From contig QWOS01000093.1 in the NCBI GenBank assembly GCA_003669555.1, positions 1-51,171 of the forward strand: 51,171 nt of DNA, in the 5' to 3' direction. Positions 7,357 through 50,346 of the stretch are shown piece after piece. The stretch is from Planctomycetota bacterium (GTDB lineage: Bacteria > Planctomycetota > Planctomycetia > Gemmatales > Gemmataceae). How positions within the stretch are numbered: the stretch's first letter is position 1; every line of letters starts with the position of its first letter. Position numbers and translations under genes: made by a program. Under the pieces are notes generated by a model. The model did not search any database, was not told the origin of the DNA, and saw nothing but the letters and a program-made list of their open reading frames with translations.

Positions 7357-7460
7357 GAGTCTGGTGGGGGGCTTGCCCGGGTGTGGAACGAGAGACCCGT
7401 TTTGGCTTGTTTATTATTGAAACCAGCCCAATCTCCCCGGGGCGGGAATAGGCAGGCGGT

Positions 7461-9589: not shown

Positions 9590-9752
9590 CCTCTCAGGTT
9601 AGCAAGCGGAGTGGGCAGACACACCCCCCACCCGCCTGATCTTGAAGCAATCAGACCGATTTGCCTGACCAACCAACCGAAAATGAGGCAAGCATGGCCT
9701 CCGGCCTGTACAAAAGAATGAAGATTTCCCGACCGCTTGGAGCTTGGCCCGC

Positions 9753-11330: not shown

Positions 11331-11433
11331 CTTGAACTTCGGTTAGCCAAGATATCTTGGCATATACTGAAATTTTTGAATTTGGAATACGCTGAACCTC
11401 CAGGAACGGGGTGGCGTAGCAAGGGAGGTTGTG

Positions 11434-12075
11434 GTGCCAGAGTCGGCAGTGTCTGATACCGCTGTGGTGTCTGATGAAAAGCTGATTGCGGAAGCCCGCA
11501 CGGGCAACCAGGGTGCCTTCAACTCGCTGGTGGGCAGGTACGAAAAGGAGTTGTATGGGTATTTGCGTCGCTATGTTGGCGACGCAACATTGGCAGAGGA
11601 TGTTTTTCAAAATACCTTTTTGAAAGTCTACGAGAAGCTTGATCAGTACGAACAGGGACGGCCGTTTCGTCCTTGGTTGTACACGATAGCCACCCACCAG
11701 GCAGTGGACACCCTGCGGCGTCAGAACCGTCGCAAGGCAGTGAGCCTGGACCGGCATGGCAGTTCTGGTTTGGAGAGTGACCAATCGAGTCTGGCAGATC
11801 TCCTGGTAGCCCGCGACGAGTCGCCACAGGATGCGATGAGTCGGGAAGAACAAAAGCAGGCTCTCCGCCAGGCGGTGGAAGAGCTGCCCGAACTGTACCG
11901 ACAAGTGATGCTCCTGGCTTACTACCAGGAGATGAAGTACAAGGACATTGCGGAGGTGTTGGGAGTGCCATTGGGCACGGTGAAGTCCAGGTTGCACGCG
12001 GCGGTCAATCGCCTGATGGGCAAGCTGAAGGATGCCACCGAGGGGACTGCGTCCCCTTCCGCCCCAACGGACTGA
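11434..12075 (+). CDS. ECF-type RNA polymerase sigma factor
   Basis: This sigma-70 family protein of about 213 residues has only regions 2 and 4. Region 2 is FNSLVGRYEKELYGYLRRYVG through EDVFQNTFLKVYEKL and FRPWLYTIATHQAVDTLRRQ. Region 4 is LPELYRQVMLLAYYQEMKYKDIAEVLGVPLGTVKSRLHAA, with a complete helix-turn-helix. Two adjacent GTG codons (11431, 11434) are possible starts; the second is favoured because GGGAGG (11423-11428) is 5 bases before it. It lies 29 bases before a membrane protein gene that probably encodes its regulator. Its targets are unknown. Confidence 0.92.
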   Translation: MPESAVSDTAVVSDEKLIAEARTGNQGAFNSLVGRYEKELYGYLRRYVGDATLAEDVFQNTFLKVYEKLDQYEQGRPFRPWLYTIATHQAVDTLRRQNRRKAVSLDRHGSSGLESDQSSLADLLVARDESPQDAMSREEQKQALRQAVEELPELYRQVMLLAYYQEMKYKDIAEVLGVPLGTVKSRLHAAVNRLMGKLKDATEGTASPSAPTD

Positions 12076-12104
12076 CTCCCCCTCTCGCCAGGAAAATCGT
12101 TACC

Positions 12105-13133
12105 ATGCAGCCCCCAGAAAACCCCCCGCTGTCAGGCGACAGCCCATTCTTTGACCTTGTTGGTCATGCGATGGGTTGTCTTGAGCCCAGCCAGACCGGC
12201 GAGATGGACGCCTTGCTCCGTGCTGACTCCCGGCTTTCGCGGCAGTCAAAAACCCTGATGGAAGCACTCTCGCTGCTACGGGAAGACCCCTTGGCCCCCC
12301 CCGCCAACCTGGCGCAGCGCACCATCGCCCGGGTGGAACGGGCCCGCGAGGCAGATTCAGCCACCATCATCCGCCTTCCAAAGGCTCCCCAGCCATCTCG
12401 GCCCTCATGGAGCTGGTCTTCGTGGCGACTGGGCGACCTGCTGGCGGCCGGTGGGGTCATGATGGTGGCGGGCCTGATCGGTTTCCCCGCCATCCATCAG
12501 GCCTGGGTGCGGCAGCGCGAGCTGTCATGCCAGGACACTTTACGGACATTTGGCACTGCCTTGAACCACTATGCTGACGCGAACCAGGGCCGATATCCCC
12601 ATGTGGCTTCATCAGGGCCCAATAGCGTGGCCAGCACCTATTTGGTGTCGCTGAGGGAAAATGGCTTTTTGCCTGAGGGTGGTCACTCTTTCTGCGCGGA
12701 TCCCATCCCTCAGGCACCCCCCGATCGTGCTCAAATGGACCGGTTTTACCAACAGGACCCCACTCTTTTCCACCGTGCCGCCCGTGCCATGGGTGGGTCT
12801 TACGCCTACCCGCTTGGCTGGTACGAGAATGGCAAGCTGACGGGGCCCCACCGGAATCAGGACGATGATCATCCTCTCCTAGCCGACAAGGGGCCACGCA
12901 CGACCGCTTCCCAAACCCGTGCCGCCAACGGTCAGATGAACCATGCGAGTGCCAATAGCCCTAATCATGGCGGCCGTGGCCAGAATGTCCTCTACAAGAC
13001 TGGCAATGTGCGCTTCCTGGCAACCCGCCATCAACCTGACGGTTGCGACATCTACCTGAACAACTCGGGGGAGATGCGGGCTGGCATTTCACCTGGCGAC
13101 CTGGTTTTAGCCCCCGGTGACGCGCACCCCTGA
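12105..13133 (+). CDS. Membrane protein with anti-sigma-like N-terminus and DUF1559-like exported region
   Basis: This 342-residue protein has a cytoplasmic N-terminal part (about 1-108) and one membrane segment (about 109-131, DLLAAGGVMMVAGLIGFPAI). The long C-terminal region should face outside the cytoplasm. Right after the membrane segment, RQRELSCQDTLRTFGTALNHYADANQGRYP resembles the N-terminal part of planctomycete DUF1559 pseudopilin-like proteins. Near residues 280-300, NHGGRGQNVLYKTGNVRF resembles their H-x9-DG region, with TG in place of DG. The N-terminal half resembles an anti-sigma domain only by position and length; no zinc motif is clear. It follows the ECF sigma gene by 29 bases and ends before a strong terminator, so the two form one unit. 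Confidence 0.75.
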   Translation: MQPPENPPLSGDSPFFDLVGHAMGCLEPSQTGEMDALLRADSRLSRQSKTLMEALSLLREDPLAPPANLAQRTIARVERAREADSATIIRLPKAPQPSRPSWSWSSWRLGDLLAAGGVMMVAGLIGFPAIHQAWVRQRELSCQDTLRTFGTALNHYADANQGRYPHVASSGPNSVASTYLVSLRENGFLPEGGHSFCADPIPQAPPDRAQMDRFYQQDPTLFHRAARAMGGSYAYPLGWYENGKLTGPHRNQDDDHPLLADKGPRTTASQTRAANGQMNHASANSPNHGGRGQNVLYKTGNVRFLATRHQPDGCDIYLNNSGEMRAGISPGDLVLAPGDAHP

Positions 13134-29534: not shown

Positions 29535-30170
29535 TCAGGCGGCGTGGCTGAGCTGTCTGGCTTTTTCTGCCAGCGGGGCGATCACATACTGGATCTCGTT
29601 GGCGGGGAACAGGCGGCACAGCCGGCGTTCATACCAGTCTTGCCAGCCCACCGACAGATTCACCAGCGGCTGCAACACCGCGCGCACCACCTTGTCGAAC
29701 CAGGTTTCGTGCATGAGGCGAATATGGACGCTTTTCACCTGAAAACGACTCTTGCTGTAAAAAGATGGCACTTTCCGACTGGGCTGGTTTGCCGGGTCGG
29801 CGAAATAGAAAAAAGTGTAGAGGCCGAAAAAACGCACATGCGTCGGGTCGGAATATCCGTACGGGTTGGAAAAGTGTGGCACGCGGATATCGATGGTTCC
29901 ACCGGGGCGAACCACCCGGTGCAGTTCATCCAGCAAGGGCATCAGCAGGTCGATGTGTTCGAGCAAGTGGCGGCAGTGAATGGCCGCCACGCTGCCAGTG
30001 GGCAGTGCCTCGAGCGGCTCATTCAGGTCGGCCTGCACATCCACACCGGGCAAGTCCACCAGATCGAGGTGGTAGTAGCCAGGAAGAGGGCGTTCGCCCC
30101 CGCCCAGATTCAGTTTGACAGGCTTTCCAGCATCCAGATCGGCCTGGAGTGCGGCATTGAGGATCTTCAT
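29535..30170 (-). CDS. SAM-dependent class I methyltransferase
   Basis: This 211-residue protein begins with the SAM-binding motif VKLNLGGGERPLPGYYHLDL (glycine loop at about 23-25, Asp at the end of strand 2). ALPTGSVAAIHCRHLLEHI follows at the motif II position, and LLDELHRVVRPGGTIDIRVPHFSNP is the post-motif typical of Methyltransf_11-like enzymes. The C-terminal part (HETWFDKVVRAVLQPLVNL and onward) is basic and aromatic. The acceptor is unknown; relatives often lie in polysaccharide or lipid gene clusters. No strong ribosome site is seen. Confidence 0.85.
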   Translation of the reverse strand: MKILNAALQADLDAGKPVKLNLGGGERPLPGYYHLDLVDLPGVDVQADLNEPLEALPTGSVAAIHCRHLLEHIDLLMPLLDELHRVVRPGGTIDIRVPHFSNPYGYSDPTHVRFFGLYTFFYFADPANQPSRKVPSFYSKSRFQVKSVHIRLMHETWFDKVVRAVLQPLVNLSVGWQDWYERRLCRLFPANEIQYVIAPLAEKARQLSHAA

Positions 30171-30560: not shown

Positions 30561-31544
30561 CTAGCCAGGAAGCCCAACCTGGTTATCCCGCCCCCCCAAA
30601 AGGTCAAGAACATCGTGCCGGTCCGTTTCGGGTAACACTTGCACAGACATCGCCTGTTTTGTTCGCAGCAAACCCAGCAGGTTCTTTTCGATGGATGCTG
30701 AAATATCACCAAGGGGCAGGTGGCTCAGATTGTTAATTGAAAACGGGTTCTGGAGTTCGATACCAATCTGGTCCAGTGCCAGGAGCGGATAGGCAACCAT
30801 CATGGTGGTGAAAGGAACCAGCCAATCGCTGTTGATGCGGTGCAAGAGTGCGAATGGCAACATCAAAAGAAACAGGGCGATGAACCGCCTGATCTTGATG
30901 GAAAAAATCAGCGGAAGCGGTGTCTTGAGGATGCGTTCACACGCTCCGATATGGTCCATGAGTGCGGCCCGTTCCCGGTCCACCTGCATGAATGCAAACC
31001 TGTCCATGTGGAAGGTATCGCTGGCTTCACGAAGAAGGTCGGCAAGTTGCAGGGCTACGAAACCAGGCATATGTCCTGATGCCGCGATTTGAGAAAAACC
31101 ATCCTGCCCCACCAGGGCGGCAACTTCCGGCGACGGTTGCTCCCCCCGCGAATGGCATCGGGCGACATGGGGAAAGACCGCCACCCATTTGATAAAACGC
31201 TCCCTCCACCCCGGATCGGCCGGGCCATAAGACAACGCACTGATCCCCATGTTCCGCGACTGATTGACGATACCACCCCACAGCTTGCGAGCTTCCCACC
31301 ACCGGTCATAACCTGTGTTGGTCCGCAAGATGAGTAGCAGGCCCAACACAGCGCCGGCAATCTCGAAAGGGGCGATCTCCAATCCGATGTGCACTTCAAA
31401 CAGGTATTCTACCAGCCACGCCAACACACAGATAAGCGTGGCGACCAGGCCAAAAACAAGCACATTGGGAAGAACAAGGGGCGTGACCGACCCTTGCCAA
31501 GCAAAAGCCTCCCGCCAGAACTTGCGACGATCCTCAAAAACCAT
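30561..31544 (-). CDS. Bestrophin-family anion channel
   Basis: This 327-residue membrane protein has the bacterial bestrophin (UPF0187) signature RTNTGYDRWWEARKLWGGIVNQSRN at about residues 73-97. Two N-terminal hydrophobic segments precede and overlap it (PNVLVFGLVATLICVLAWL and FEIAGAVLGLLLIL). Two more lie at about 215-260 (FIALFLLMLPFALLHRI and PFTTMMVAYPLLALDQIGIELQNPF), as in the pentameric channel fold. Bestrophins pass chloride or bicarbonate; some algal and plant members are thought to move bicarbonate next to carbonic anhydrases. The gene lies 35 bases after a beta-carbonic anhydrase gene, which favours bicarbonate as the ion here. That point is inference. Confidence 0.9.
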   Translation of the reverse strand: MVFEDRRKFWREAFAWQGSVTPLVLPNVLVFGLVATLICVLAWLVEYLFEVHIGLEIAPFEIAGAVLGLLLILRTNTGYDRWWEARKLWGGIVNQSRNMGISALSYGPADPGWRERFIKWVAVFPHVARCHSRGEQPSPEVAALVGQDGFSQIAASGHMPGFVALQLADLLREASDTFHMDRFAFMQVDRERAALMDHIGACERILKTPLPLIFSIKIRRFIALFLLMLPFALLHRINSDWLVPFTTMMVAYPLLALDQIGIELQNPFSINNLSHLPLGDISASIEKNLLGLLRTKQAMSVQVLPETDRHDVLDLLGGRDNQVGLPG

Positions 31545-31579
31545 GCGGCTGGACTCCCAGGCTGGTTTGCCGTTGGTGG

Positions 31580-32245
31580 TTATATCGTGACGCCCGCACT
31601 GCGGCGAACGGCTATTTCACTAATCTTATACTGGGCGACAGGCACAAATTGTCCGCTGGTGGAATCGTAGGCAAAGACTTCGCCGGTTTCGATTTTGTAA
31701 ACCCACCCATGCAGGTGAAGGTCACCCTTCACCAATCGTGACGCAACAGCTGGTAGCGTGCGAAGGTTTTCCAGTTGTACCAGCACATTTTCCTCGACAG
31801 TCGCAGTCACCAGTTGGTCGCCGTGCAAATGTTTATAATTGTCATGCACGATGCGGCGAGTCGTTTCAGCGTGAGACAGCCACGATGACACGGCCGGCAG
31901 TTGGGAGATCATTTCGGGCTGTAGCAACCCCTGCATCGCTCCACAGTGGGAATGTCCGCAGATGATAATGTCCTTGACGCCTAGTCCCGCTACCGCAAAC
32001 TCGATAGTAGCCGCCTCCCCGCCGTTGGCCGCCCCGTGCGGCGGCACGATATTCCCGGCGTTGCGGAGGATGAACAGTTCGCCCGGTTGCGAGCGGGTCA
32101 GCATGTTGGGGTCAATGCGGGAGTCCGAACAGGTGATGAACAGCGTTTCAGGATTTTGGCCCTTCGACAACTGTTCAAACAACCCTTGCAGCGGACGGAA
32201 GTCCTCATTCTGGAACCGGTGAACTCCCTGAATCAGCTTCTGCAT
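31580..32245 (-). CDS. Beta-class carbonic anhydrase
   Basis: This 221-residue enzyme interconverts CO2 and bicarbonate. Zinc ligands are C39 in TCSDSRI, and H98 and C101 in CGHSHCGAM; the catalytic Asp-Arg dyad is D41/R43. Other family blocks are [12 protein letters not shown] and [25 protein letters not shown]. The protein is slightly longer than many and ends with a beta-strand tail ([19 protein letters not shown]). No signal peptide is present, so it is cytoplasmic. It lies 43 bases after an arsR-type gene and 35 bases before a bestrophin gene, all on one strand, so a single operon is likely. Confidence 0.95.
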
Positions 32246-32288
32246 AACATTGACTCCTTAACAGGTTAATTTTTGGCACTCTGCCGAG

Positions 32289-32648
32289 TCACAATTCAGG
32301 GTCCATCCATTCCTTACGGGCCTTGCCAATGGCTTTCCGAAGCTCGTCAGCGTCAACAGTTCCTTTTTCAAGAAATACCATTGCTTCCAGCAACCAACCG
32401 GCTATTTCCGGCTGGCGAAGCTGATAGAAAACCCGCCTCCCCTCTCGCCGCTCGGAAACAAGCCGGTTCGCACGCATCACCATCAGGTGCTGCGACACCC
32501 CGGAGTGACTGATCCCAAGCGCTTCCTGGAGTGCGTTCACATCATGCTCCCCATTTCGCAACTCTTCGATAATGCGAATACGGTGCGGATGTGACAAAAC
32601 CCCCAGAAACTCGGCAAGTTCCCTGGTCACCAAAGCACGGTACGGCAT
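32289..32648 (-). CDS. ArsR-family transcriptional repressor without cysteines
   Basis: This 119-residue winged-helix regulator has LAEFLGVLSHPHRIRIIEELRNGEHDVNALQEAL, the recognition helix region GISHSGVSQHLMVMRANRLV, and the wing ERREGRRVFYQLRQPE. A C-terminal helix follows (LRKAIGKARKEW). It has no cysteine at all, so it cannot use the thiol metal sites of ArsR or the dithiol persulfide switch of SqrR/BigR-type members. It is the first gene of the carbonic anhydrase-bestrophin operon. A perfect palindrome overlaps its own promoter, so it probably represses itself and the two genes behind it. Confidence 0.92.
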   Translation of the reverse strand: MPYRALVTRELAEFLGVLSHPHRIRIIEELRNGEHDVNALQEALGISHSGVSQHLMVMRANRLVSERREGRRVFYQLRQPEIAGWLLEAMVFLEKGTVDADELRKAIGKARKEWMDPEL

Positions 32649-32667: not shown

Positions 32668-32683
32668 ATTCAAACATTTGAAT
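32668..32683. promoter_or_regulatory. Predicted ArsR operator palindrome
   Basis: ATTCAAACATTTGAAT is a perfect 7-2-7 inverted repeat lying 20 bases before the arsR start codon. It also fits ATTC-N8-GAAT, the pattern I recall for SqrR/BigR-type ArsR proteins. It overlaps the predicted -10 element, a position suited to repression. Confidence 0.8.
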
Positions 32684-32710
32684 CTTAAGACGTATACACC
32701 TTCAAGTCAA
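32682..32710 (-). promoter_or_regulatory. Predicted sigma-70-type promoter of the arsR-carbonic anhydrase-bestrophin operon
   Basis: On the minus strand, TTGACT (complement of 32705-32710) is followed after 17 bases by TAAGAT (complement of 32682-32687). The same TTGACT is repeated one step upstream (32710-32715). The -10 element runs into the operator palindrome. Confidence 0.6.
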
Positions 32711-32962
32711 GTCAACTCCATGAAAATCGTGTTGGCTAAGCCGCGGTTTCTGACACATGCCTGCCCAGGCTGGGGGGACGGCTGACGAATAGGAATCCCT
32801 GGGCAATGCCACAGGCGGTATGCTTGGCAGGGCCCTGAGAGTACGATAGGCTCGGCAACGAAGATGCGGCCCATCATGTCCGGGAACAGCGGTTGCCGGG
32901 CCACTGTGGGGCAGGGATTTTGTCCGGGCCAGCCAGAACAGGCAACACTCAAGGGATCCGAA

Positions 32963-33895
32963 ATGAACTCTGATCAGACCAGACGCGGATTTATCCGGGC
33001 TTCCTCGGTTGGTGCGGTCTTGCCTGCGGCTCTGGCCGCCGCCGGCGAAAGGAAGCCGATCCAGGTGGTTGTCTGGGACGAGCGTCAGCCTGCCCAGAAG
33101 CAGGCCTATGACAATTTTCTGGGAAATCAGATTGCCGCCCACCTGAAAGGCCGGCCAGGCCTGGCGGTGACATCCGTTTGCCTGGAAGACGACGAGCGGG
33201 GTGTGTCGCCGGCGTACATCCGGGGTTGCGATGTCCTTATCTGGTGGGGCCATGCCCGCCAGGCTGAAATCACCCCCAAAATGGCCCAGCCGATCCTGGA
33301 CCGGATCAAGGAAGGTACCCTCGCTCTGATCGCACTCCATTCGGCGCACTGGTCAACACCGTTTGTCGAGGCCATGTACGACCGAACCCGCACCGACACC
33401 CAGAAACTCCTCAAGCGGAACGGACCGCAGGTGGAGATCACTTATGTGGATCCTCCCAGGCGCTACACCACCCCCAAATACGAGGACCGTCCCACCCCGT
33501 ATGTGGAATTGCGCAAGTTTCCCGATGGTTCAGAAAAAGCGAAGGTCTTCCTCCCCTGGTGCTGCTTTCCGGCCTACAGGGCTGATGGCAAGCCAAGTCA
33601 GGTGCGGGTCCTGCGGCCTGACCATCCGATCGCTCAGGGGGTTCCGGTCCAGTTTGCATTGCCCCGGACAGAGATGTACGGCGAAGTATTCCATATTCCG
33701 GAGCCCGACGAGGTGGTGCTGGAGGAGCGTTGGGCGAGTGGTGAATGGTTTCGCAGTGGCATGGTCTGGAATATTGGCAAAGGCCGGGTGTTTTATTTGC
33801 GCCCCGGCCACGAAACCTACCCGATTTTCAAGGATCCCAACATTCTCTGCATCCTCGAGAATGCGGTCCGCTGGATGGCCCCCAAACCCCCCTAG
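32963..33895 (+). CDS. Tat-exported ThuA-like protein
   Basis: The frame is open from 32864, but the ATG at 32963 begins MNSDQTRRGFIRASSVGAVL, a twin-arginine signal (R7-R8-G-F); this gives 310 residues. The mature part matches the ThuA/trehalose-utilisation-like fold of the class I glutamine amidotransferase superfamily: IQVVVWDERQP, YIRGCDVLIWWGHA, LIALHSAHWSTPF, and the C-terminal GKGRVFYLRPGHETYPIF. The usual amidotransferase cysteine is not evident. ThuA homologues are linked to sugar metabolism, but most planctomycete members have no known function. It starts 315 bases from the divergent arsR and lies 95 bases before the SUMF1-like gene. Confidence 0.88.
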   Translation: MNSDQTRRGFIRASSVGAVLPAALAAAGERKPIQVVVWDERQPAQKQAYDNFLGNQIAAHLKGRPGLAVTSVCLEDDERGVSPAYIRGCDVLIWWGHARQAEITPKMAQPILDRIKEGTLALIALHSAHWSTPFVEAMYDRTRTDTQKLLKRNGPQVEITYVDPPRRYTTPKYEDRPTPYVELRKFPDGSEKAKVFLPWCCFPAYRADGKPSQVRVLRPDHPIAQGVPVQFALPRTEMYGEVFHIPEPDEVVLEERWASGEWFRSGMVWNIGKGRVFYLRPGHETYPIFKDPNILCILENAVRWMAPKPP

Positions 33896-35262: not shown

Positions 35263-38200
35263 TTACAGGGTAATCCCCGACCAGTCATTCTCATCTCCCG
35301 CGAAGAAGCTGTCGATCAATTTGTGGGTGAAGGGGTCAAAGGTGCGGACATTGGGGCCGGCGCCCGGGCCGGGGCCGGTGGTGATCAGGGTTTTCTCACC
35401 CACCTTGACTGAACCCACACGCACCTCACCCTTCCAGCCCTGGTAGGCCATGAAGTAGTCGATGGCGTTCGGGTTGCCGTTGTAAATGCCCACCTGTTGG
35501 GTGGTGTCGCCGGAGGTGCCGAGGATCAGCTCGGCGATGTTGTCGCCATCGAGGTCAGCGGCGGCGATTTCGACACCGTTTCTTACAGCCTCGGGGAAGG
35601 CGTAGAAGCTGGTGATGACTGATTGGCCCAGGTTGGCGAAGGCCACCACATGGGAGATTGGGCCGGAGGCGGTGGAGGTGATGATATCGATGACGCCATC
35701 GCCGTCGGCGTCGGCCGTCGCGAGGCGCAGGCCACCCTTGAACGATCTGTCAAAGGCGTAGAAGCTGGCGAGCACCTCCCAGGTACCACCCGAGATCACC
35801 ACCACATGCGGCGTGGCGCCAGCGTCTGCGGCCAGGATGATATCCGCGACGCCGTTGGCATCGACATCACCTGTGGTGACATTGACGCCGCCGAGGAAGC
35901 GCGGGTCGAAGACATAGACGCTGCGGAGGACGGACATGTCCTTGCCGCTAACGACGACCATGTGGGGTGAGACCCCGGGCTGGGGCACCGAAACGAGATC
36001 AGCAATGCCGTCGCCGTCGAGGTCGGAGACGCTGTTGAAGCGGGGGACGCCCTGGTAGCCCTGGAAAGGTGTGAGGGGTGCCGTCAGCGCGGTGCCGTCT
36101 GTGGACCAGGCCCGCAGGCTGCCGCCCTGGCCGACGGTGATGGACGGCACCGAGGTTTTGAAGAAGGGCGTCGGGGCCGTGGCGGTGACGACAGTCTTGC
36201 CGGCCTCGTTCCTGAAATATCCATTCTCCATTGAGGTAGATACCGAGCCACCCAGGTAGAACACCGGGGTATTCACCTCGATGACACCGTGTTTGGCCGA
36301 TAGCTGGAGGTCATTTTCGGTGCCAATTTTGACCATGCCATTTTTGCCGGTCACCAAGGCCACGGAGCCGTAAGCGTCGGTGTTGATATGCGCCTGAACG
36401 GAGACCAGCTCCTCTGCCTCGAGGCGGATATCTTTCGCGGGGAGGTCATCGCTCACCAAAATAGTCTTGGCAAAAACCACCACTTTGTCTGGGGCGACCG
36501 ACCCCAGGGCCAACTCCACAGTGGCCGCGGTGTCGTGCACGGTGATCTTGCGGACTGTGGCCCAATCGATCATGAAGTTGGCGCTGACAGAATGGAAACC
36601 TGCAGGATCCAGCAGGAGGGAGTCGGTTCCTCCCGTCTTCACGAGCAATTGGTTGTCGGCATCGGGGTCGGTTCCGGTGATCTTGATTGTCGTCCCGGGT
36701 TCCAGGGCCATCACCTCAAACTGATCAAGGCCATCCCCCGAGTCGATCTCGCAAGAAGTGTAGCCGGGCTGGAACACCACGGTGTCGTGGCCGGTGCCGA
36801 GGATAATCTTGGCGGGGCCGGGGCCGGTCCAGCTCAGCGTGTGTCCAGCCCCGATGCTGATAGTGTTAGTTGCCCCCAATACCACCCGGAGGTTCTTGGT
36901 AACTTTCGAGAAATCGAGCGTTGCGCCCTCTAGGTGGGAAGCCGGAATTAGATCGTTACCGAAATGGTCTGTGAACAGTATCAGACTGTTAGTACCGGGC
37001 ATATCGATGTCGTCGGCCCCTTCCCCGCCATTGACCTTGTCTTCACCTCCGCCACCCAGCACCTTGTCGTTGCCGGGGCCAGCGTCGATGATATCTTTCC
37101 CAGAGCCGCCAAAGATGTTGTCAGCGCCCTTGCCGCCACGGATATGATTCAGGCCGAGCCCGCCGATCAGCGTGTCGCTGCCATCGCCGCCATCGAGCCA
37201 GGCGGGCGAGAGCACCCCAGCGCAGTCGATGGTGTCATCACCCTTGCCGGCGATGCCGACGATCCGGTCGACATGGTGGTAAACCTGGGGCACCGGCACC
37301 CCCTTGGCGTCGACATACTGCGGCACCCCGTTGACATAGAGCTGCACGGAAAGGGTCTCGTCGCCGGCCAATCCGCCCAGATGCCGTACCTCAATGTGTT
37401 CGTCCTCCACGCCGCGCGTGGCAGATCCCCGGCGGTTGCCTGTTGAACCCATGTTCAGGTAGAGTGAACCATAGCTGGCGGCCTGCTCCACCGGGGGAGC
37501 TGGATTGTTGTGCAAATCGAAAAGCGTGAAACTGCCAAAATCCTGGTGCCAAACCTGCTTCCATTCAAAGGGCTCATACAAGTCGAGGTAGGCATCGGCG
37601 GACACACTGCCCGTGAAATCAAAGTCGAACAGGTTGAGCGGGCTGGAGAAATTGGCCCCTGCAAGCTGGATCATCTCTTGGAGGTTGAGGCGACCACTGG
37701 AATCGACATTGGGGGTCATGGACATGTCGATATTGAAATTGCCCTGCACGCCACCCTTGGCCAGCCCCGCGTTGAGCTGCACACCCATCGACAGGGTGCC
37801 GCCGGCGGTGATGGAGGTGTTATCGCCGTCGACGAAGAGTCCCTGCATCAGGACATCCTGGACAAGCCCCTCGAGGGCCGATGTGGACAGCCCATCAGTG
37901 CCGTTGATGGTGCTGGCGACCCACTGTTCAAGGCCGGCCGAATCGAAACCCAGGGACAGGTTGACGGCGGTGTGGACCCCGGCGCCGAAGGTCATGTAGA
38001 GCGGTGGGTCGAGCGGGAACGACTTGTCGATGCTGAAGTCGGCGGACAGGGTGGGGAAGTTGATGTGAAAAATATCCACGGTCTGGCCGGTCACCAGCCC
38101 GATGATGTTGTTCGGGTCAAGGATGTCAAAGGATATGCCGAGCCCGCCAGAAGAGCCGTAGGACTGGTTGACAACATTTTTGGCCGCCTCGGTGAAGTTG

Positions 38201-41200
38201 TTCTTGGCCCCGTTGGCGTATTTGTTGAGGTAATCGTTCACGGCATTGACGCTGTCCTGCTGGCTGGGCAGGGTGGTCAGTTGCGTCGGTTTGCCCAGGC
38301 CGCTGGCCGCGTCACGGAAATCATCGGGGAAGGTGCAGACCACACCCAGGGGCACCCTGTAGCTTTCGCCGGGGTTCTGCTGGATGTAGTTCACCGCGCT
38401 GGTGATGTCGTCGAGCATGTCGGCGATGCCGGAAAGGGCTGTGACGAAGCCCGTGTCGGCCAGGCCGAAGGTGGATGCCAAGCCCAGGATGGAGGTGTCA
38501 CCCCCGATGATGTCGCTGAGGACCGGCGTTTGGGTCTGCAGGGCGTCGAGGATGGGCTGGACGCCGGTGGTGATGGGTGTCAGGTAGGGGACAACGGCCC
38601 CCATGTAATCGGAAATGAAAGACCCGAGATCGACATAGAAGTTGTTGTAGCTGAGCTGAGGTGCCCCCTGGCCGGGTGTCCAGGTGATGCTCATGGTGTT
38701 GCCGATGCCTGGGATGGCCGCGGCGATGCCGCCTCCGGCCACCTTCAGTTCGAGGTCGACATTCAGGCCAATTGTCGGGGTGTCCAAAGTCGTCTGGAAA
38801 ATGGACGAGGGGGTCATGCCGTTGAGTTCGGCCAGAGTGAGTTGCCCGTTTTTGTTAGGGTCGGTCAGCAGGGATGAGAACGGCATGGTGAAAATGTCGC
38901 CGGTGCTGGCGCTCATGGTGCCGCTGAGGAACCCGATGGTCATGGTCGTGCTGAAATTGGAATCAGGTCCGGCGTTGAGGGTACCGGTGAACTGATTGCC
39001 GCCAGACGCGGTCGGGACGATGAAGAAACCGTTGAAAGTGTCGATTCCGAAGCTGAGATCGACCGTCGCAGACCCTGAGGCAGTCAGGTTCAGGTCGGCG
39101 GGGTTGTTGATCGACAAGGGGATACCGGGCATGCCCAGACTGAAGGGGATGCTGGTGTCTTGCAATAAGTAGTCGATGACCAGGGGTAGCTTGACCGCCT
39201 GGACGGTGGTGGTCTGCAAGGCGCCATTGACAAAACTGAGGGTTGTCGGGTTGTAGGTGAGGACATTGCCGCCGATGTCCAAGAAGGTGGGCAGGTAACC
39301 CGTGACCGTCTTGTTCGACTGGGTGCTGGTGTAGGTTCCCGAGGTGAACACCATGGAGGCATCGAGCACCAGGCCAGGTGTTGCCAGCACGGAGTTGTAG
39401 ACGGTGCAGGCCGCGTTATAGAGCTGGGTGTCGGCACTCTCATTCGAACTGCTGGCCGCGCCGACACTGATAACCGGATTCTTGTAACCCGTTCCCCCTT
39501 TGTTGATAGTGATGGAGCCAACCTTCAGTTTGCCGTTGCCGTCACTGACCATATTGGCCGTGGCGGTGGCACCACTTCCGGGACCTCCGTTGAGGTCGGA
39601 GATGGTTACCAGCGGTATGGTGGTGTAGGACTCCCCGGTCTGGACCACCGTGATGGCCGTGATCACGCCGCTGGAATTGCTGGTGGCGCTGGCTGTGGCG
39701 TTCTGGTCGCACTGTGGCACGAAGGGGGTCAGCGTGGCGGCAAGGTTCTGGGCGATGGCGCCGTAGGTGTCAAATGCCTGGCCGAAGACATCGGTGCCGG
39801 TGCCGATGAGGATCTGGGTCTGGTTTTTCATGGACGAGGTGAAGACCGACTGGAGCGCCGATTGCAGGGCCCCGATCCCTTGCTGGAAGACATCAGGATC
39901 CCCGAGGGCGTTGGCGAGAGAAACGGAGTTGATAGCGTCGTTGGTGATGTCGGGCAAACTGAAAGTGACGGAAGGTGTTCCGGTGGGGTTGGTGCTATTG
40001 CGGGTGGTGCCATTGAAGCGCACCACTGGCGAGACATAGCCCGAGCCAGCGGCGGTGACGGTTATTCCTGTTACGGCCCCGGAGGAATTGATGGTGGCGG
40101 TGGCCGTGGCCCCAGTCCCAGTGCCGCCCTCGTCCAGAATGGTCACTTGGGGCGCCACGGCGTAATTGGCACCGCCGGCGACCAGAGTGCAGGAGGAAAT
40201 ACCCCCCGAGCTATTGAGGAGGGCGTTGGCAACGGCCTGCAATTGTAGGAATTGGGGGAGCTGGGCCCCGGAGGCACCTCCCGTCCCGGCAACCGTGAAG
40301 GCGCCGGAGTAGCAGGTGCTGGTGGGGTAATAGACCGGCAGGGTGCCGCTGTAGGTGCCCCCCGAGAAGGTGCCGGACAGGTTGGATGCCACCAGCGCGG
40401 ACGCCAATTGGTTGGAGGTGATGCCAGTCTTGATCGAGCCGCCAGAAACGGTGACCGACGCGGGAGAGGAAGTGCTTGCCTCGAAATAGATGGCGGCCGT
40501 CCCCAAGGTGCCCTGAAAATCCAGGTTGTTTCCCGTGACACCGATGCCGGTGAGGTTCCAGGCGGTGGTGGTGGCTGATCCCTGCACATAGCCTGCTGGG
40601 GAGTAGGCGGTTGACACACCGGAACCTGACTTGGTCCAGAAGGCGCCGAACGGGGCCTGCCAGGCGGCGTTCAGCGACAGCGAGACATTCCCAGTGTTGC
40701 TGGGGGGAACAACAAGGTAGGAGAGTTCAGAATTGTTGGTCTTGCCCATGGAGCCGAAGCCCCCCGCCAGGGCGGCGAAGGTGCCGGCATCGAAGGCCAC
40801 CTGGGAGGTGGCACTCACGGGCTCTGACCATACCTGCGGGATGAGTGTGATTCCGTAGCCGGAGGACGAGCCGACAGTCAGCGGGCCGAAGGAGAGCTTG
40901 AAGGTGGACGCGTTGTCATCGGCCCAATCCATCAGGGAATCCAGATCCGTGGGGACATCGCCGACCAGGTGATCCTGGACATATTGGTAAAAATAATCGG
41001 AGAAGTTGGTCAGGTCCTGGAGGTTTCCGCTGGTGAAGGGCATCACACTTCCCAGGTATGTCGCCGTGTCGGTGCGTTGCAGGGCCATGGAAACCTGGTT
41101 GAAGGATGTCCCCACCCCGAATTGATCGAAATACAAAAGGCCCTCGGCATTTGCCCAGTTGGAACCGATGAATTGGCCCAGGTTCGCGGAGTTGACGCTG

Positions 41201-44200
41201 AAAGTCACATTCGGAATCGGCACGGTTGTCGCGGAGGATGTGGGGAGACCGAGGAAGCCACCAACCTGGGTGGAGACAAAGGCGTTCAGGGTGAGGTCGT
41301 AGGAGTTGATCAGCGCTGTCGTTCTGGCGTACTGGGCCAGCAGGTTGTCGCTTCCAAGGTTGGCTTGCCAGTCGCCGAAATCCAGGAAGGTGCCCGCAAC
41401 CGTTGACAGGGTGAAATCGACATCGGGGCTGAAGCTGTCCGCGACCAGGCTCACATCGAGGTAGCCGACTTGGGCCGACCCGGTGAAGCCGGAGGAGCCG
41501 TTGGTGCCCTTGAAGTTCATGCCCAGGTCAATGTTGCCCAGTGTGACCTGGCCGAGGGTGGCTGTGGTCCAAGCCTGGTTGGTGAAGTAGGCTTGGGAAA
41601 AAAACGGGTCGGAGTCGGCATCAGCCGAGACCTGCCAGAGGAGCGGCGCATTGCCCGAATCGGGCATGACCACCATGAGGCCGGCGGATTGGGCGTAGGT
41701 CGGGTAGGATTCCGAGAGAAGCGGGCTCAGGTAGGCCGCCAGATTGTAGTAGCCCGGGGATGTGTTGGTGTTTCCCCCGGCTAGGCCCGCGATCGCCTGG
41801 TTGTTCAACTGGTTCAAGTGGTCGATGATCTGGTACTGGAGGCTGATACTGCTGTCGGCGGTGGTGGTGGTGGTGAAGGTGGTGCCGTCGAGGAAGTAGA
41901 AGGTGTGGTGGAGGGTGGACGGGCCCGACGGCGCCTGGGTGATGTCGACAGTGGGTGGATCAATTGTGATGACGGGGCTGACATAACCGAAGCCGTAGTT
42001 GGTCATGACAATGTCGCTGATCTGGCCCCCCTCCATCACCGCGTAACCGACTGCCCCGGTCCCCTGGCCCGCCGAATCGGTGATGGTGACAGCGGGGGTC
42101 TGCGTGTAGAGGGTTCCGGCGTATTGCGTGGGAGCTGTCTTCACCCCTTGGGTCACCACGGCCGTCGCGGTGATGGGCGGGGCGATGGTGACCGTGGGGG
42201 TGGAGGTGTAACCGGTTCCAGGGTTGTTGACCGTGATGGCCGTGACCTGGCCGTTGGTGACCATCGCCGTCGCTGTCGCCCCTGTTCCCCCACCGCCGGA
42301 CAGGGTGATTAACGGGGGTGTCGAGCCATAGTAGGATCCCCTGGTGGTGACCGTGATGGAGGTGACGGCGCCATTGGCGATGGTTGCGGACGCCTCCGCC
42401 GGTTTATTGTTGCTGAAGGAAACCGTGGGGTTGGTGTAACCCGAGTTCATGGTCGTCGGGGGGTCGATGGTGACCACGGGGTTGGTGTAACCCGAGCCGG
42501 CGTAGGTGATGGTCAGGCCGGTGACTACACCCTTGGTGAGGACGGCGGTGGCGGTGGCCCCGGACCCGGTGCCGCCATTCGAATCGGTGATGGTCACAGC
42601 GGGGGTGGCGGTGTAGCCGATGCCCCCGTTGGTAACCGTGAGGGCGGCGATTGTACCCGCATCCAGGGTAGCCGAGGCCGAGGCCTGGTTCTGGTTGACC
42701 GAGACCCCGGTGATGAACCCATTCTGATCCAGGGTGGCTGTGGCATAAGCACCCGAACCATAGCTACCGGCGGAGTCAGTGATGGTGACCGTGGGCGCGA
42801 TGACCAGTTGATCCCGGGAAATGGTGGCCACAGTGGGCGGATCAATGATGAAAACGGGCTTCTTGTACCCGGAGCCTTGGGTAGTGATGGTGATGCCTGT
42901 GACCACACCACTGGAATTGATGGTGGCAACCGCTACCGCCCCAAAGCCGGTTCCGGAAGAATCGATGATGACTACGCTTGGAGCGGCAGCATAATACTGC
43001 CCGCCGTCACTGATGGTTGCCGAGCTGATGCCACCTGAGGCGTTCAAGACGGCGACGGCGCGGGCGGGTTTGTTGTCGGCGATGGTCAGGACAGGTCTGC
43101 CATACCCTGAACCTGGGCTAACAAGATTGATGCCGGAAATTTTACCGGTGGCATCGAGGATGGCCGTAGCGGTCGCGCCGCGGCCTATGAGAGGCAGCGG
43201 CGCACTGGATGGGACCAGTGGCATTCTGGACATGCTGATCAAGTCAACCGCGGTGTCGCTATCGGGTCCACCGGTGCCCTGCCCCGCAATTTTTAGGGTA
43301 TGGGTGCCCGCGGGGAGATACACAGGAATAGAATTCCAACCCTGCCAGGCGGTGGTGGTGACCTGGCTTGCGGCGACCGTTCCGATATTCACCTTGTCCA
43401 AGGTCACGGATAACGGGTTGGCGGCATAGCCGGTTCGCTGGATGGCTTGGAAGGAGACCAAGTAGTAACCTGGCACGGTCACGGTGAAGGATTGGCTGAT
43501 AGAACCATTGCTGGATCCGGAGCTTTGGATGTAGGCGGCCTGGGAGCCTTCCGGGGCGTTGACCGCATACCAGGGGCTACCATTGCCGGCGATGCCGGCG
43601 GAATTAGCGAATGTCCAACTGCCGCCGGACGGGTTGCTGGTGAAACCGCCACTTTTCTGGACGGGTGCCTCGAAACCGTAGTTGGCGAAGAGGTAGAGCG
43701 GTGTCGGCACCCATTTGCCAGTGTTGCCCGAGCCCGACGAGTCAGCCAGGTTGGCGCTGTCTTCCTGGTCTGCTTTGTAGTACCCGATGAGGCCACTTTG
43801 TGGAGTGGAATAGCTGGTATTCCAGTTGGCTTGAATCTCGGAGTTTGTGAGCGCACGATTCCAGAAACGCAGCTCATCTTGCTGGCCCTGCCAGACGGGG
43901 TCGGTAGACGAGTTACTCTTGCCCCAGTAATTGTCGGCGCGGGCCAGATTGTTGAGTTTAGGCATAGAGGCGTAGGTGCCCTGCGCCTGGCCATTGAGAT
44001 ACAGGGTAGCGGTGGTGCCGCTGAAGACGGCGGTGACATGGTACCAGGTGTTACTGAGTAGCGAGGAGCCGGCCGTGAGGGTGTAGCCGGTCGAGCCGGC
44101 GTAGGTGGACAGAAACAGTTTCGATCCCTTGATCCCGACGATGATATTGTCGGAATTCTGGCCATTACCCAAGTCGATGATGCGCTGACCATCGACGCTG

Positions 44201-47200
44201 ATGCTGGTGGATTTAAACCAGGCTTGGACGGTGAAGGCCCCGTACTGGCCCAGTTTCAGGTCGGGCAGGGACCCGTATGCTGGGGAAGATGTGGAACTCA
44301 CCATGGCATTGCCGGGGCTATCGGAAATGGAGACGATGGGCGGGGAGGAGTAGACCTGCGTACCCCCCTTGAAGTCTTGGATTGTCGAGACGAACCCGTC
44401 CTGGTTGAAAGGCTTGGAGCCCGGGCTAACCGTGACGGAACTGACAACGCCGGTGGTTTGGGCTGTCGCTGTCGCCTGGGCCTGCCGGTTGGCCGCGGAC
44501 GCCCCGTTCGTGAAGACCGAGGCGTCCAACTGCAGTGAAAACTGTCTCACCGCGGTGACTGCGCCCTTGACCTTCTCGGCGCCGGACAGCGTGAGGCCTG
44601 TCACATTCGGGATTTCCGCCTGGTTGATCGCCGAAGCGGTGATCTTGACCGTGGCGCTGCCCGAATTCATGTCGGCATAGCCGACATAGAGCTGCTTGGG
44701 GTTGGTGGACGGCCGGTACTGGACACTCGCCAGAGCGGAATAATCCTGGTACTGGGTGGCCTCGCTCAGGAAGGTCGCCGAGTAGGTGAACCCCGAGTTT
44801 TTCAGGACCGTGGCCGAGCCGGTGGAGCCGACCGTGAAAACGCCGCCCACCGTGAGGCCGGAGGCGCTGATGGTGCCGGATGGCAGCCAGGAACCGCCTG
44901 TAGAGTATTGGACCAGGCCGGCTGTGGTGGAATTCGTGGAGATGGCCCCGCTGGTGGCGATGATCACATCCCGGGTGCTGAAGCCCATGACATAGGTTCC
45001 CGCCTGATTCAGCGCGGAAATCAGCGCCGGGGCGAAATCCACCGCAAGCATGGTGGAACCGGTCCTGGTGATTTCCATGCTGGTTGCGGCCGCGGCCAGG
45101 GTGTAGGTCGGGGCGGAGGATGTGCCGCCCACCAGGAACAGCAGCGGCGTGATCCAGCCGGTACCCGTCGTGGTGGCGGTGGCGTACACCTGCATGGCGG
45201 TGGGCAGATTTTGCGCGGCGCCCTGGATGGCCGAAAGCTGGTAGGTCTGGGACGGGTTGACCACCACCTGCCCCGTGGCGGTGTCGAGCGAGGACCTGGA
45301 GATCACCGGGCTGCCCGCGGTCTGGGAGGCGATGATATCGAGCGAGTAGGCGGGTGCGGCAGTGAAAGCGGCGGCGCTGCCGACGTTGGCCAGGCTGGTG
45401 CCGGTGGAGAGCCAGCCCCCCGCCAGGGTTGTGCCGTTTTGCATGGCCACCAGCCCGGTGGAGGCATTCTTGAAACCGAAAAGGTAGGAGACGCCCGGTG
45501 TCAGGTTGCCCAGGTTGGAAAAGGTGACCGGGATCTGGTTGGCACCCGCCTGGATGGGATATTCGGGGTCCAGGCTTCCGGTCGCCGCAACCGTGTAGGT
45601 GGACTGGGACGAAGAGGTAGGGCTGTAGCTGAAGAGCATCGGGGTGATCGTCTGGGGAGACGACAGGGTGATGGTGGGAGCCGATGTGTATCCCAAACCG
45701 GGGCTAGTGATGGTGATGGCAGTCACCACGCCATTGGAGACCGTCGCGGTGGCGGCGGCCCCGGTGCCCCCGCCATTGGTGATGGTGACTGTTGGCGCGC
45801 TGGTGTAGAAGGTGCCCGGGTTGCTCAGGGTGATGGAGGTCAACGCGCCGCCCGAAACGCCCGCGGTCGCCGTGGCTGTGGGTGCCACATTGGAATAAAA
45901 GCGAATGGCGGTTGGAACCAGGCCCGTTTTGTAGGCGGCACCAGTGTAGACATAGCTGCCGGCCGAGGCGGTGTCGGTATTGGGGCGCCCCGGAGACCCC
46001 TGCCCGGCTTGGGCAAAGCCTTGGTAGGCGGTGAAGGCGTAATTACGCCCGCCCGACACCCACGCGCCCGAGGTTCCAAACACGGCGCCAATGTCGACCT
46101 TGAGCGCCACCGGGGGCGCGACCGTGACCGTGGGCGCTGTGGTGTAGCCTGTCCCGGCTTTGGTCACCGTGAAGCCTGTGATCTGGCCGCTGCTGTTGAC
46201 CGTGGCCGTGGCGGTGGCCGTGGTGTTCACCGGCGGGGCAGAGATCGTGACCGTGGGAGCTGAGGTGTAATTCGAGCCCTGGTTGGTGACGGTGATGGCG
46301 GTCACTACGCCGTTGGTGACGGTGGCTGTGGCCTGGGCTCCCGAACCGCCGCCGCCCGAAAGGGTGATGGTGGGAGCGCTGGTGTAGCCGGTACCGCCCG
46401 TCTTGACGGTGATCGTGGTCACCTTGCCAGAACTGTAGGAACTGGTTGCTGTGGCAGTGGTGTTGGCGGGCGGTGCCGAGAGGGTTACTGTCGGCGCGGA
46501 GGTGTAACCGCTTCCACCGGCGGCGACGCTGATGCCGGACACGGAACCGCCGGCTACGGTGGCAGTTCCTGCCCCGGTGGTTGCTGTGATTCCCGGGCTG
46601 TAAAGCCAGGACCCGGTTCCCGAGGAGAAATCACCTCCGATGGTGCCGGTGTAACTGGCGGTTGTCGCCAGGCTGGAGGCGGTCACGGTCATGGCTTGGT
46701 CGGTGAATCCGAGCGCGTAGGTGGCGGTAGAATCGGGCGTGAAGGAGGGGAACACCAGGCTGGCGGTTTGCAAGCCGACGCGCGCGACAGAAACGGACTG
46801 GGCGGCCGCGACTAGTGTGTAGGAACCACCGTTCACCTTGAACAAAAGCGGGGTGATGGAATGGTTGATGACATTCGCGTTGAACTGGATCGCCGCTGGA
46901 ATGGTGGCGGAGGTGTAGGTCGCCCCGCTGTTGATGAATACCTGGCCGGTGGTGGTATCGGTGTTCGGAAGGGGTGACGGGGCGGTGCCTGCGCCGAGCA
47001 GGTTCGGTTCGTTCAGGGTGTCCAGCATGCCCTGGAGGCTGCTGAAGGTCGGGTAGGTCGCCTGCCGGGCGGTGAGGGTTTGCGTGAAGAGCTGGACCTT
47101 GTCGATGCCGACCAGGGACTGGGAGGCGGTTCCAGAGGAAATCTGCCCCTGCAATTTGAGGGAGTGGCTGCCCGCCGCCATGTAGATCGGCTGGCTGGTG

Positions 47201-50200
47201 AACTGCTGGTAGGCGGAAGACCCGAGGGCGGAACCGGGCAGGTGGTCATAGGTGGCGCCATTCACCTGGAACGAAAGCCTCACACCGTCGATGGTGACCA
47301 CCGTGTCGCAGGCAGCCGAGGTGGAAGACTTGGCTGCGAAGAAGGAAAGCTGGTAATAGCCCGCCTCGACATTCTGGAGGGTCTGGCTGACGGAGGGCTT
47401 GGGGGCGCTGGTGGAGGTTTGCTCCAGGAAAACCGCCTGGGTGCCATCGGGCGGGGCGGCGGCAAGGTAATAGCCCTGTGTGGTGATGCCATTGGTGGCC
47501 GAGCCGCTACCATTGAACGACCATTGTGAACCCTGGGGGTTGTTCAACGATGTCACGACAAAGGGTCCCTCAAAACTGCCGTTTTGCAGGGCGACCGAGT
47601 AGGTCGGGGTGGCGAAGAAGCCGAGTTGGGTGAAGCCGTTGGCGGCCTGGTTATTGTTCACCCCCGAGTTGTCCGGGTCCATCGTGAAGGCGGTGACGCT
47701 GGAATCGGTGGCGTAGAACTCGATGAATCCGGGATGGGTGGGTTGCTCGCGGCAGGCCAGGCCGGTCCCGGCCAATTTCTGGTTGAAATGGTAGGCCACC
47801 GGGCCGGCGATGAAGAGTCCGGAGGTGTTGACTGGGGGGGAATCGGTGCTGAGGTTGCCCGAAAGGGTGAAAGCCTTGGCGGCGTCGCCGCGGTAGATGG
47901 TGAAGGTCGCCCCGTATTTGTTCTGGGGCAACTGGCCCTGGATTCGGAAGGTACCGGCGATGGACAGGGGGTTCTGGTAAAGGAGCCCGGCGGAGGTGCC
48001 CAATCCGCCTCCCCAGTCATAACTCTGGGCGATGTTGCTGCTGCTGAACGGCACCTTCTGCCAGGAGGTCTTGCTAACAGCGCCGAAGGAGCCGCCCGCG
48101 TTGTTCAGCCCGGTGTTGACGAGGGCTGCGGCATCCAGTTGGGCCAGGGCCAGGTAATCGCCGAAATTGGCAGTGGCCCACAGGAGCTGGGAGTAACCGC
48201 TTCCAGTCCAGGATTGGCTGTTGGAGGCCAGGCTGAGCGTCGGGGCGGCTGAGCCTGTGGGGAAGGCGTTACCGCCCACCTGTCCGGTGAAGGCCATGCT
48301 GGCGCTGACCGAGGTTGAACCCGAGTTTTGGAAGAGGCTGGCGGTGGCAAAATCGGCTGTGTTGGACAATTTCGAAGTGGAGATGGTGTTTGAACCCGTC
48401 ACCCCGGGGGCGGAAACGCCTGTTCCGGTGTCATACAACACGCTGGTGGCGTTTGTCGTCAGGGTGTAGGCGCCATTGGTGATGCTGCTGTCGAGGTAGC
48501 CCAATCCTACCGACAGGGCCAGCCCGGAAAGGTTGGCAGAGGCGCTCCAGCTTCCTGTGACTCCGGTCACCAGGGTGCTTCCCTGTAGGCCAATGGTGAG
48601 GTCGAGGACGCCCGTCACGGCTATGGGAATTGTGCAATTGCCGGTGGGATTGAGGCGCAAACCGGCATCCAGGCCCCCGGTTGAGAAAACGGAGTTGTAG
48701 GTGGCAGTCTGGGTCCATTGGATATGGACGCTGGGGGTGGAGTAGAGGGTGGCACCGCTTGCGGCCCTGCCGCCGTCGCTGTTTTGCGGTTCCACGGCAA
48801 TCATGTCGATGGACGAGTTGTTGTTGCCGCCGTTACCGCCGGCGATCTTGAGCTGGTAGGTGCCGGGCTTGAGGAAAACGGCGTCGCCGTTTGAGAACGC
48901 GATCCAGTAGCTGTCGTTGGCCTTGAAGTATTCCCAGGCTCCACCCGTGCCAATGGGGGAGTTGTACTGGTCATTTTTCATGTCCCAGGTGCTGAGGGTG
49001 GTGCCGTTGAGCGACACAACCACCTTGTTGTTGTCGGTGTTGTTCTTGCCGATCGCCTGGTAGCTGACCTTGTAGGACCCGCCGGTGGCGATGGTCACAT
49101 CCTGGTAGATGGTGGCAACACCCTGGATCCACCCCGCCTGTTTCCCCTCGGGAGCGTTTACCGTGATGTAGTCGCTGCCATTACTGGCGATGCCCGAGTC
49201 ATCGTCCCCCGACTTGGTGAAAGTCCAGTTCGCGCCGGAGGGCTCATTAAGATAGGTACCGTTGCTCAGAGTCGGCGTCTCAAATCCCGAGTTGGGGACA
49301 GTCACGGAGCTTGCCACCTGGAGGGTGCCCGTCTTGCCGTTTCCCGAGGAATCGGTCAGCGAGGAGGAGCCGGAAGCCTCATCCGCCTTGTAACAGGCGA
49401 TCAGGCCGCTTTGGGCAGTGGTGAAACTGATGTTGTAATTGGCAGCGATTTCAGAGGCGGTGAGCGCCCGGCTCCATAAGCGCAGCTCATCCTGCTGGCC
49501 CTGCCAGACGGGGTCGGTGGACCAGTTGCTAAGGCCCCAGTAGTTATTGGCGCGGGCTACGTTGTTGAGTTTGGGCATGGAGGAGTAGCTGCCCTGTGAC
49601 TGGCCATTGAGGTACAGAGTGGCTGTGGTGCCGCTGAAGACGGCGGAGACGTGGTACCAGGTGTTGCTGGACAGCGTCGGCCCGGCCGTGAAGTTGTAGC
49701 CGGTCGAGCCGGCGAAGGTGGACAGGAACAGTTTCGATCCGGAGATGCCGACGATGATGTTGTCGGACGCGTCTCCATTCCCCAGATCGATGATCCGCTG
49801 CCAACTGGAACCAATATTGCTGGAATTGAACCAGGCCTGCACCGTGAAGCCGGAATATTGAGCTAGTTTAAGGTCTGGGATAGTGCCGTAGGCCGGCACG
49901 GAGGTGGAGCTGGTGAGGGCGTTGCCGGCACCGACCAGGTCGCCGGCGGTGCAGGTCACCGCTGTTGTCATGCCGGCGGGGCTTCCGGAAACCAGGGTGT
50001 TGGCGATTGTCCAGAGGTCGCTTGCCGAGGGGTTGGGGTAGGTGGTGTCGAACTGGCTCCAGGTGTTGGCGCCGTTGTTGTAGGCGTTCAACCCCAGCAC
50101 ATCGCTTAGCCGGCTTGGAGCCATCTGCCCGAGGGACGAATCCAGGCCGGGTATCCGCGGTAGGGCATCCTCCGCCTGCCGGAGGGACTGGGCGATGGTG

Positions 50201-50346
50201 GACAAGTTGCCGAAAGAGGGGTTGATGCGGCTTTCCAGGATTTCGATGGCAGGGCGGCGCCTGGCGCGTGGGGCACTGCCGGGACCCCGTGATTCCCCTC
50301 CCTCAAGGCCCCTGAGTCTCGAAAGCAACCTGAAGAAAGCGCCCAT
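35263..50346 (-). CDS. Giant (5027-residue) multidomain surface protein
   Basis: This is one uninterrupted 15-kb gene; the ATG at 50346 has AGGGG 8 bases upstream. The basic N-terminus (1-45) carries [16 protein letters not shown], the LE.R motif of planctomycete giant exported proteins, without a classical hydrophobic signal. In order come LamG 1 (about 141-345), GFE module 1 (about 349-525), beta-rich sequence, GFE module 2 (about 918-1095), GYTSAPT-type repeats (about 1260-1560) and more beta-rich sequence. Then follow LamG 2 (about 2013-2215), GFE module 3 (about 2219-2385), a second repeat array to about 2790 and scattered repeats at about 3375-3640. Near the end are RTX-like glycine/aspartate repeats (about 4371-4453) and four FG-GAP-like repeats with DxDxDG motifs (about 4770-4980). 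It is probably a calcium-binding adhesin or matrix protein. No LPXTG or PEP-CTERM anchor is seen. Confidence 0.88.
35400..36040 (-). repeat. FG-GAP/VCBS-like repeats in the giant protein
   Basis: Four repeats have the calcium-binding-type cores [35 protein letters not shown] and [12 protein letters not shown], spaced about 45-50 residues apart and each followed by strands such as HVVVISGG. They form a likely beta-propeller-like segment at the C-terminus of the giant protein. Confidence 0.8.
36990..37240 (-). repeat. RTX-like glycine/aspartate nonapeptide repeats
   Basis: The segment reads [37 protein letters not shown] and [18 protein letters not shown], about eight tandem GGxGxDxU-type units of the hemolysin calcium-binding type. 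Such repeats fold into a parallel beta-roll on binding calcium outside the cell and often accompany type I secretion. Confidence 0.85.
42000..43150 (-). repeat. Main array of GYTSAPT-type beta repeats in the giant protein
   Basis: The units are about 35-60 residues long, of the general form ATATVxNGxVTAITVTxxGxGYTSxPTVTI(S/T/D), often followed by GGGGSGA or DSxGxGxGA. Further units lie at about 45650-46560, 39990-40210 and 39470-39670. I know this pattern from large bacterial surface proteins but cannot assign a named Pfam family. Confidence 0.8.
43720..44310 (-). repeat. LamG module 2, duplicated from module 1
   Basis: The encoded segment runs from [24 protein letters not shown] through [30 protein letters not shown] and [15 protein letters not shown] to [10 protein letters not shown]. 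It matches the segment at 49380-49925 closely in protein and visibly in DNA, so it is an intragenic duplication. Confidence 0.88.
49380..49925 (-). repeat. LamG module 1 of the giant protein
   Basis: This is a LamG/concanavalin-like module with [74 protein letters not shown] and GLIACYKAD. It is followed by GFE module 1 ([12 protein letters not shown]). Modules of this kind usually bind glycans. Confidence 0.88.

Follow-up and report, generated by a model that had tools for sequence, protein, structure and literature searches.

A planctomycete operon joining a beta-carbonic anhydrase and a bestrophin channel behind an ArsR-type regulator: a candidate system for carbon dioxide and bicarbonate handling

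Genes for an ArsR-type regulator, a beta-carbonic anhydrase (CA), and a bestrophin channel stand in this order as a tight same-strand set in the window, i.e., the whole stretch of 51,171 nucleotides of planctomycete DNA that was analyzed, and a check of other genomes revealed the CA-bestrophin pair in planctomycetes, Legionella, other proteobacteria, and Bacteroidota. With a probability of about 0.55, we consider the operon as dedicated to CO2/bicarbonate handling in a bacterium without detected RuBisCO, where the conducted ion, its direction, and the ArsR signal are what we infer. ArsR would repress its own operon until an inorganic-carbon or pH-related signal is sensed, cytosolic CA would equilibrate CO2 with HCO3- and H+, and a bestrophin pentamer would let HCO3-, or else the counter-ion Cl-, through the cytoplasmic membrane, predominantly out of the cell. 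The expected net effect is that CO2 is disposed of faster as HCO3-, H+ stays in the cell, and cytoplasmic pH and bicarbonate are kept under control, which may serve as a defense against alkaline drift.

The original prediction described CA and bestrophin genes 35 bases apart after an ArsR-type regulator, and all three reading frames were found at these positions (Table 1); the module with its own regulator is borne out as real and recurring. The gap between ArsR and CA amounts to 43 bases, the 35 bases extend from the CA stop codon to the bestrophin ATG, and Shine-Dalgarno-like sites are present for both CA (AAGGAG) and bestrophin (GGGAG). Short CA-bestrophin spacing is also kept in three other genomes (G064, G079, and G071). 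The genome of the window is a bin of 3.4 Mb, 60% complete, and the closest relatives with a name are planctomycetes. A methyltransferase gene (29535-30170), the next one on the strand of the operon, looked unrelated, and so did the gene of a ThuA-domain protein with a twin-arginine-like start (32864-33895, plus strand), which diverges from the operon.

Table 1. Features of the ArsR-CA-bestrophin locus, with positions counted from the first letter of the window
Feature	Position	Strand	Evidence or remark
ArsR/SmtB-family winged-helix regulator, 119 aa	32289-32648	-	HTH_5 9.6e-9; NCBIfam HTH_metalloreg E 6.9e-25
Beta-carbonic anhydrase (CA), 221 aa	31580-32245	-	Pfam PF00484 Pro_CA E 2.7e-47
CA-bestrophin intergenic stretch, 35 bases	31545-31579	-	GGGAG ribosome-binding-like site
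Bestrophin, Bestrophin_2-family channel subunit, 327 aa	30561-31544	-	Pfam PF25539 E 2e-70
Sigma-70-like promoter: -35 TTGACT, 17-nt spacer, -10 TAAGAT	32682-32710	-	9/12 consensus match only
Putative ArsR operator, 16-bp perfect palindrome ATTCAAA-CA-TTTGAAT	32668-32683	.	35 nt before ArsR start codon, touches -10

Attribution of the first enzyme as a zinc carbonic anhydrase is upheld by the Pro_CA profile and by the intact zinc/catalytic set of beta-CAs (C39, D41, R43, H98, and C101), invariant in 17 relatives. Its closest solved relative is chain 5swc (E 8e-79), which we take to be the carboxysomal CcaA of Synechocystis. Inspection by eye revealed no signal peptide in CA, and the enzyme is therefore taken as cytosolic. 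Many of the 95 same-family genomes contain its relatives with 70-86% identity, and a 788-aa frame with CA located elsewhere in the genome of the window (G000:C63) has the length of a SulP-CA fusion, as judged by length only.

The bestrophin-type channel was likewise correctly recognized, given the full-length match to PF25539 (residues 1-289 of 327, profile positions 1-286 of 288) and the fold resembling that of KpBest from Klebsiella, with which the protein aligns over its length (E 1e-32, 24-25% identity); the AlphaFold model (pLDDT 91.8) gave Foldseek TM values, taken by target, of 0.84-0.90 against the KpBest crystal structure (4wd7/4wd8). No bacterial bestrophin other than KpBest has been characterized; it conducts Na+, its neck motif is IIF, and the substitution I66F or I62R shifts the channel towards Cl-. 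Human bestrophins are highly permeable for HCO3- (PHCO3/PCl 0.44-0.69) (PMC8496536) and algal ones are assigned HCO3- transport (PMC11142338). The neck of the window protein is built of hydrophobic A65/L69/L73 (A-L-L) with Phe at the aperture; it fits neither the IIF (Na+) nor the IFF (Cl-) motif, and prediction of selectivity from the neck was dropped for this reason. In the tree of 119 bestrophins, the protein falls into a fully supported clade of 28, most members of which have Ala at the first neck ring, often with Leu replacing the third Phe, and aperture Phe is found in 23 of these 28 vs. 6 of the 91 other bestrophins; judging by sequence, the clade has a distinct pore. Common family and fold with KpBest, as well as the presence in some of these operons of SulP/BicA-type importers, which use Na+, make it conceivable that the channel conducts Na+ or K+ as a compensating cation or adjusts membrane potential, while CA gives H+ and HCO3-, the whole operon serving charge and pH balance. 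This is rather unlikely considering that the IIF neck is replaced by A-L-L, that aperture Phe sets the clade apart, and that the operon has no partner for Na+ extrusion. At the same time, Na+ conductance of KpBest and a neck unlike both the Na+ and the Cl- motif count against the efflux of bicarbonate proposed above.

Gene neighborhoods of CA and bestrophin fall into several architectures. Apart from ArsR-CA-bestrophin (A), found in the window, G064, and G066, CA can diverge from a Ser/Thr kinase and bestrophin (B), the kinase being fused to a Peripla_BP_5 sensor domain in L023, L052, and L056 and standing alone in L055. In the third type (C), the order is CA-SulP-USP-bestrophin (L048 and L049) or CA-(SulP-CA fusion)-bestrophin (L045), and in the fourth one (D), bestrophin precedes CA with reading-frame overlap, single-base in L047 and ATGA-type in L129. 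The order bestrophin-ArsR-SulP-CA was also observed in other genomes, and CA of the window's type occurs with SulP replacing bestrophin in L013, L036, L037, and L041. SulP was not found at the window locus but is present in related operons. The SulP family counts BicA, which transports bicarbonate, among its members (PMC10880623), so that of all the genomic evidence for a role in inorganic carbon, the sharing and exchange of partners with SulP carries the most weight. As to particular loci, a second bestrophin encoded in the genome of the window (L023, G000:C2:24000-40000, 5668-12446) follows a Ser/Thr kinase-Peripla_BP_5 fusion and diverges together with it from another CA, as is also the case in L054 and L056; CA of L023 is followed by arginine decarboxylase, a CO2-releasing enzyme, and ORFs of similar size come after CA in L054 and L056. 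This arrangement is suggestive of a bestrophin-linked kinase that senses a ligand. In the CA-SulP-universal stress protein-bestrophin operon of two planctomycete genomes (L048:5163-9486 and L049:4208-8512), USP might gate transport.

The inorganic-carbon or pH-balancing system suggested by the original prediction thus gains support in its role from SulP joining the same genes in several genomes, but not in the direction of supply from channel to CA. Bestrophins are passive channels, and an anion at equilibrium across a membrane at -120 mV would be about 0.01 times as concentrated inside as outside, which favors efflux through such a channel. As the cell is negative inside, HCO3- would flow mostly outward, and with CA taken as cytosolic, its feeding by the channel is energetically unlikely. 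For the same reason, we regard as unlikely an uptake module in which bestrophin admits external HCO3- and CA makes CO2/HCO3- for carboxylases, even if SulP neighbors in some loci point to bicarbonate acquisition and algal bestrophins do feed a CA (PMC11142338). The algal flow from stroma to lumen is topologically directed from cytoplasm to outside, and CA is luminal there, whereas here it would be cytosolic; moreover, RuBisCO-free organisms would have little need for such uptake. No match to the RuBisCO family was detected in 15 of 17 carrier genomes (that of the window being 60% complete), and two weak matches were obtained in the other two. With RuBisCO not detected in 15/17 carriers, a RuBisCO-based CO2-concentrating mechanism was rejected as the function of the operon. 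Where bestrophin coexists with SulP, the latter would act as an energized importer and bestrophin as a passive valve or a counter-ion path; it should be admitted against the efflux model that a passive exporter next to a SulP importer is futile unless gated.

Like SmtB/ArsR metalloregulators, the regulator belongs to the winged-helix family and has a palindrome as its putative operator close to the promoter, the zinc sensor SmtB being its nearest solved relative. It differs from them in having no cysteines and no alpha-5 zinc ligands (D104, H106, H117, and E120 of SmtB align with Q, E, F, and K) and in its partners, which are the genes of CA, SulP, and bestrophin. From its sequence, the protein is classed as having an ArsR-family fold but not as a metal sensor. 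The supposition that ArsR is a zinc sensor adjusting the zinc enzyme CA, for which the family and the kinship with SmtB speak, is quite improbable: the ligand residues are absent, and zinc sensing was rejected on this ground; each carrier genome has a single exact operator, which lies at this operon; and neither bestrophin nor SulP is a zinc protein.

Promoter elements similar to those of the window (TTGACA-N17-TAATAT/TATATT) lie upstream of the same gene in relatives. Of the 11 ArsR-CA loci of planctomycetes, 10 carry the exact palindrome ATTCAAA-N2-TTTGAAT at -35 to -41 from the start codon, and it did not appear in any of 3300 shuffled upstream regions. When 20 whole genomes were searched, the exact palindrome turned out to be single-copy in each of nine carriers (the window's genome and eight others), always at the ArsR operon, and among the same 20 it was absent from genomes without this ArsR, except for one stray copy in G041; the site of G064 bears two mismatches, so that this genome has no exact copy. 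Its occurrence once per carrier, at this operon, suggests that ArsR is a dedicated single-operon autoregulating repressor acting at the putative operator.

In planctomycetes, ArsR precedes CA in G066, G064, G080, G083, G084, G086, G012, G310, and L069, and in five of them (G080, G083, G084, G086, and G012) the pair is devoid of bestrophin; in G067 ArsR stands before CA-SulP with another gene between, and in G201 it diverges from SulP. Beside the intact ArsR and CA of L069, a planctomycete MAG, bestrophin is split over two frames (L069:6001-6779), which may be an assembly error or a pseudogene. Distant ArsR homologues in G159 and G415/G377 have no CA, SulP, or bestrophin nearby (for G377 within a locus of 3.3 kb only), hence not every one of them adjoins such genes. 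Regulators near the bestrophins of L064/L065 are different, located on the opposite strand, and were not counted as the same ArsR. Among 112 genomes of Legionellaceae, 12 proved to have an orthologue, in every case next to CA or SulP-CA (L182-L192 among them), with bestrophin also present in 3 of the 12 loci; CA there is mostly of a different beta-CA type, and the upstream sites of Legionella are rich in AT and bear no more than a loose resemblance to the planctomycete palindrome. By their gene content, these ArsR-CA/SulP loci represent a putative inorganic-carbon regulon absent from the open-licence papers found.

Recurrence of the CA-bestrophin pair, the lack of which would have refuted the original prediction, was confirmed. 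It was evaluated in 95 genomes of the home family, 67 of which contain bestrophin. With the window CA as query, CA was found within 5 kb of bestrophin in at least 20 of the 67, and reading of individual loci added pairs with more distant CA types in G033, G034, and G052, raising the number to at least 23/67; G027 holds a second pair with CA too distant for this query. By chance, 0.41 genomes would be expected to have the pair within 5 kb and 0.08 to have it within 350 bases; such a test is inflated by kinship of the genomes, yet the pairs span 13 genera with differing gene order. CA is directly followed by bestrophin in G064, G066, G071, G079, and G041. In the rest of the phylum sample, the pair within 5 kb is present in 9 of 46 bestrophin genomes. 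Neighbor-blind scanning for relatives of the window bestrophin (one genome per species) yielded 80 loci, 11 of them with CA; these include loci of Legionella, of uncultured proteobacteria, of two Bacteroidota, and of Methylococcales, where 4 kb separate the two genes. CA accompanies 8 of 15 loci of the window-like clade vs. 3 of 65 other loci (Fisher p 3e-5), and the remaining 7 of 15 lack it within the sequence fetched, some contigs being short. CA-linked bestrophins belong to other supported clades of the tree as well; some of its rows were picked for having CA, and the tree therefore demonstrates repeated association, not frequency. Many genomes carry CA without bestrophin, and both the seven CA-less loci of the window clade and the frequent ArsR-CA pairs without bestrophin speak against the efflux model. 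Chance adjacency is ruled out by at least 23/67 against 0.4 expected, and mere co-location, with CA as a widespread housekeeping gene and bestrophin as its downstream hitch-hiker, is very improbable despite the numerous CA-ArsR pairs lacking bestrophin and bestrophins lacking CA, because the association far exceeds that expectation, is seen with several gene orders, in a number of bestrophin clades, and in three phyla, and includes overlapping bestrophin/CA frames.

Since this partnership recurs in unrelated bacteria, bacterial bestrophins by analogy probably handle bicarbonate as in algae and animals. More tentatively, and with rather more doubt than confidence, they may be seen as an unrecognized class of bacterial inorganic-carbon channels, paired with CA in several lineages independently and placed in Planctomycetota and Legionellaceae under a dedicated non-metal ArsR sensing CO2, bicarbonate, or pH, which would parallel the pairing of bestrophin with CA in algae and animals. 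We know of no established physiological role of bacterial bestrophins, and the tie with CA in three phyla gives them a testable one. Algal BST1-3 and PtBST1 likewise combine bestrophin and CA in moving inorganic carbon, yet there the protein is of algal type and CA is luminal (PMC11142338), whereas the window encodes a Bestrophin_2-type protein and a presumably cytosolic CA, with neither pyrenoid nor RuBisCO. Human BEST4/CA7 (OTOP2) intestinal cells co-express bestrophin and CA, with HCO3- handling proposed (PMC11371329); being co-expression in a cell type, with another CA class and an animal bestrophin, this is an analogy only. Such parallels suggest that the algal and animal partnership has bacterial counterparts.

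A close bacterial likeness is the toolkit of CA with SulP (BicA-type), where CA also stands beside an anion transporter; CA and ArsR of the window's types accompany SulP in G067, and ArsR accompanies SulP-CA in Legionella. The difference is that the partner in the window is a bestrophin channel and that RuBisCO is missing from nearly all of the tested carriers. Bestrophin and ArsR both go unmentioned in a 2024 review of the bacterial inorganic-carbon toolkit (PMC10880623), and among open-licence papers, which is weak evidence, none was found on bacterial bestrophin-CA operons, ArsR-CA operons, or this ArsR. The protein families and folds are already known; the CA-bestrophin partnership and its putative ArsR switch appear to be new. 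If the proposed function is true, the known bacterial transporters of inorganic carbon are joined by a channel that operates independently of RuBisCO, and the ArsR clade with its defined putative operator becomes a candidate CO2-, bicarbonate-, or pH-responsive switch and a possible biosensor. Further along the window, positions 35263-50346 of the minus strand are occupied by a single ORF of 5027 aa, whose repeated domains look LamG-like, Ca-binding, and VCBS-like, so that its product looks like a giant planctomycete surface protein.
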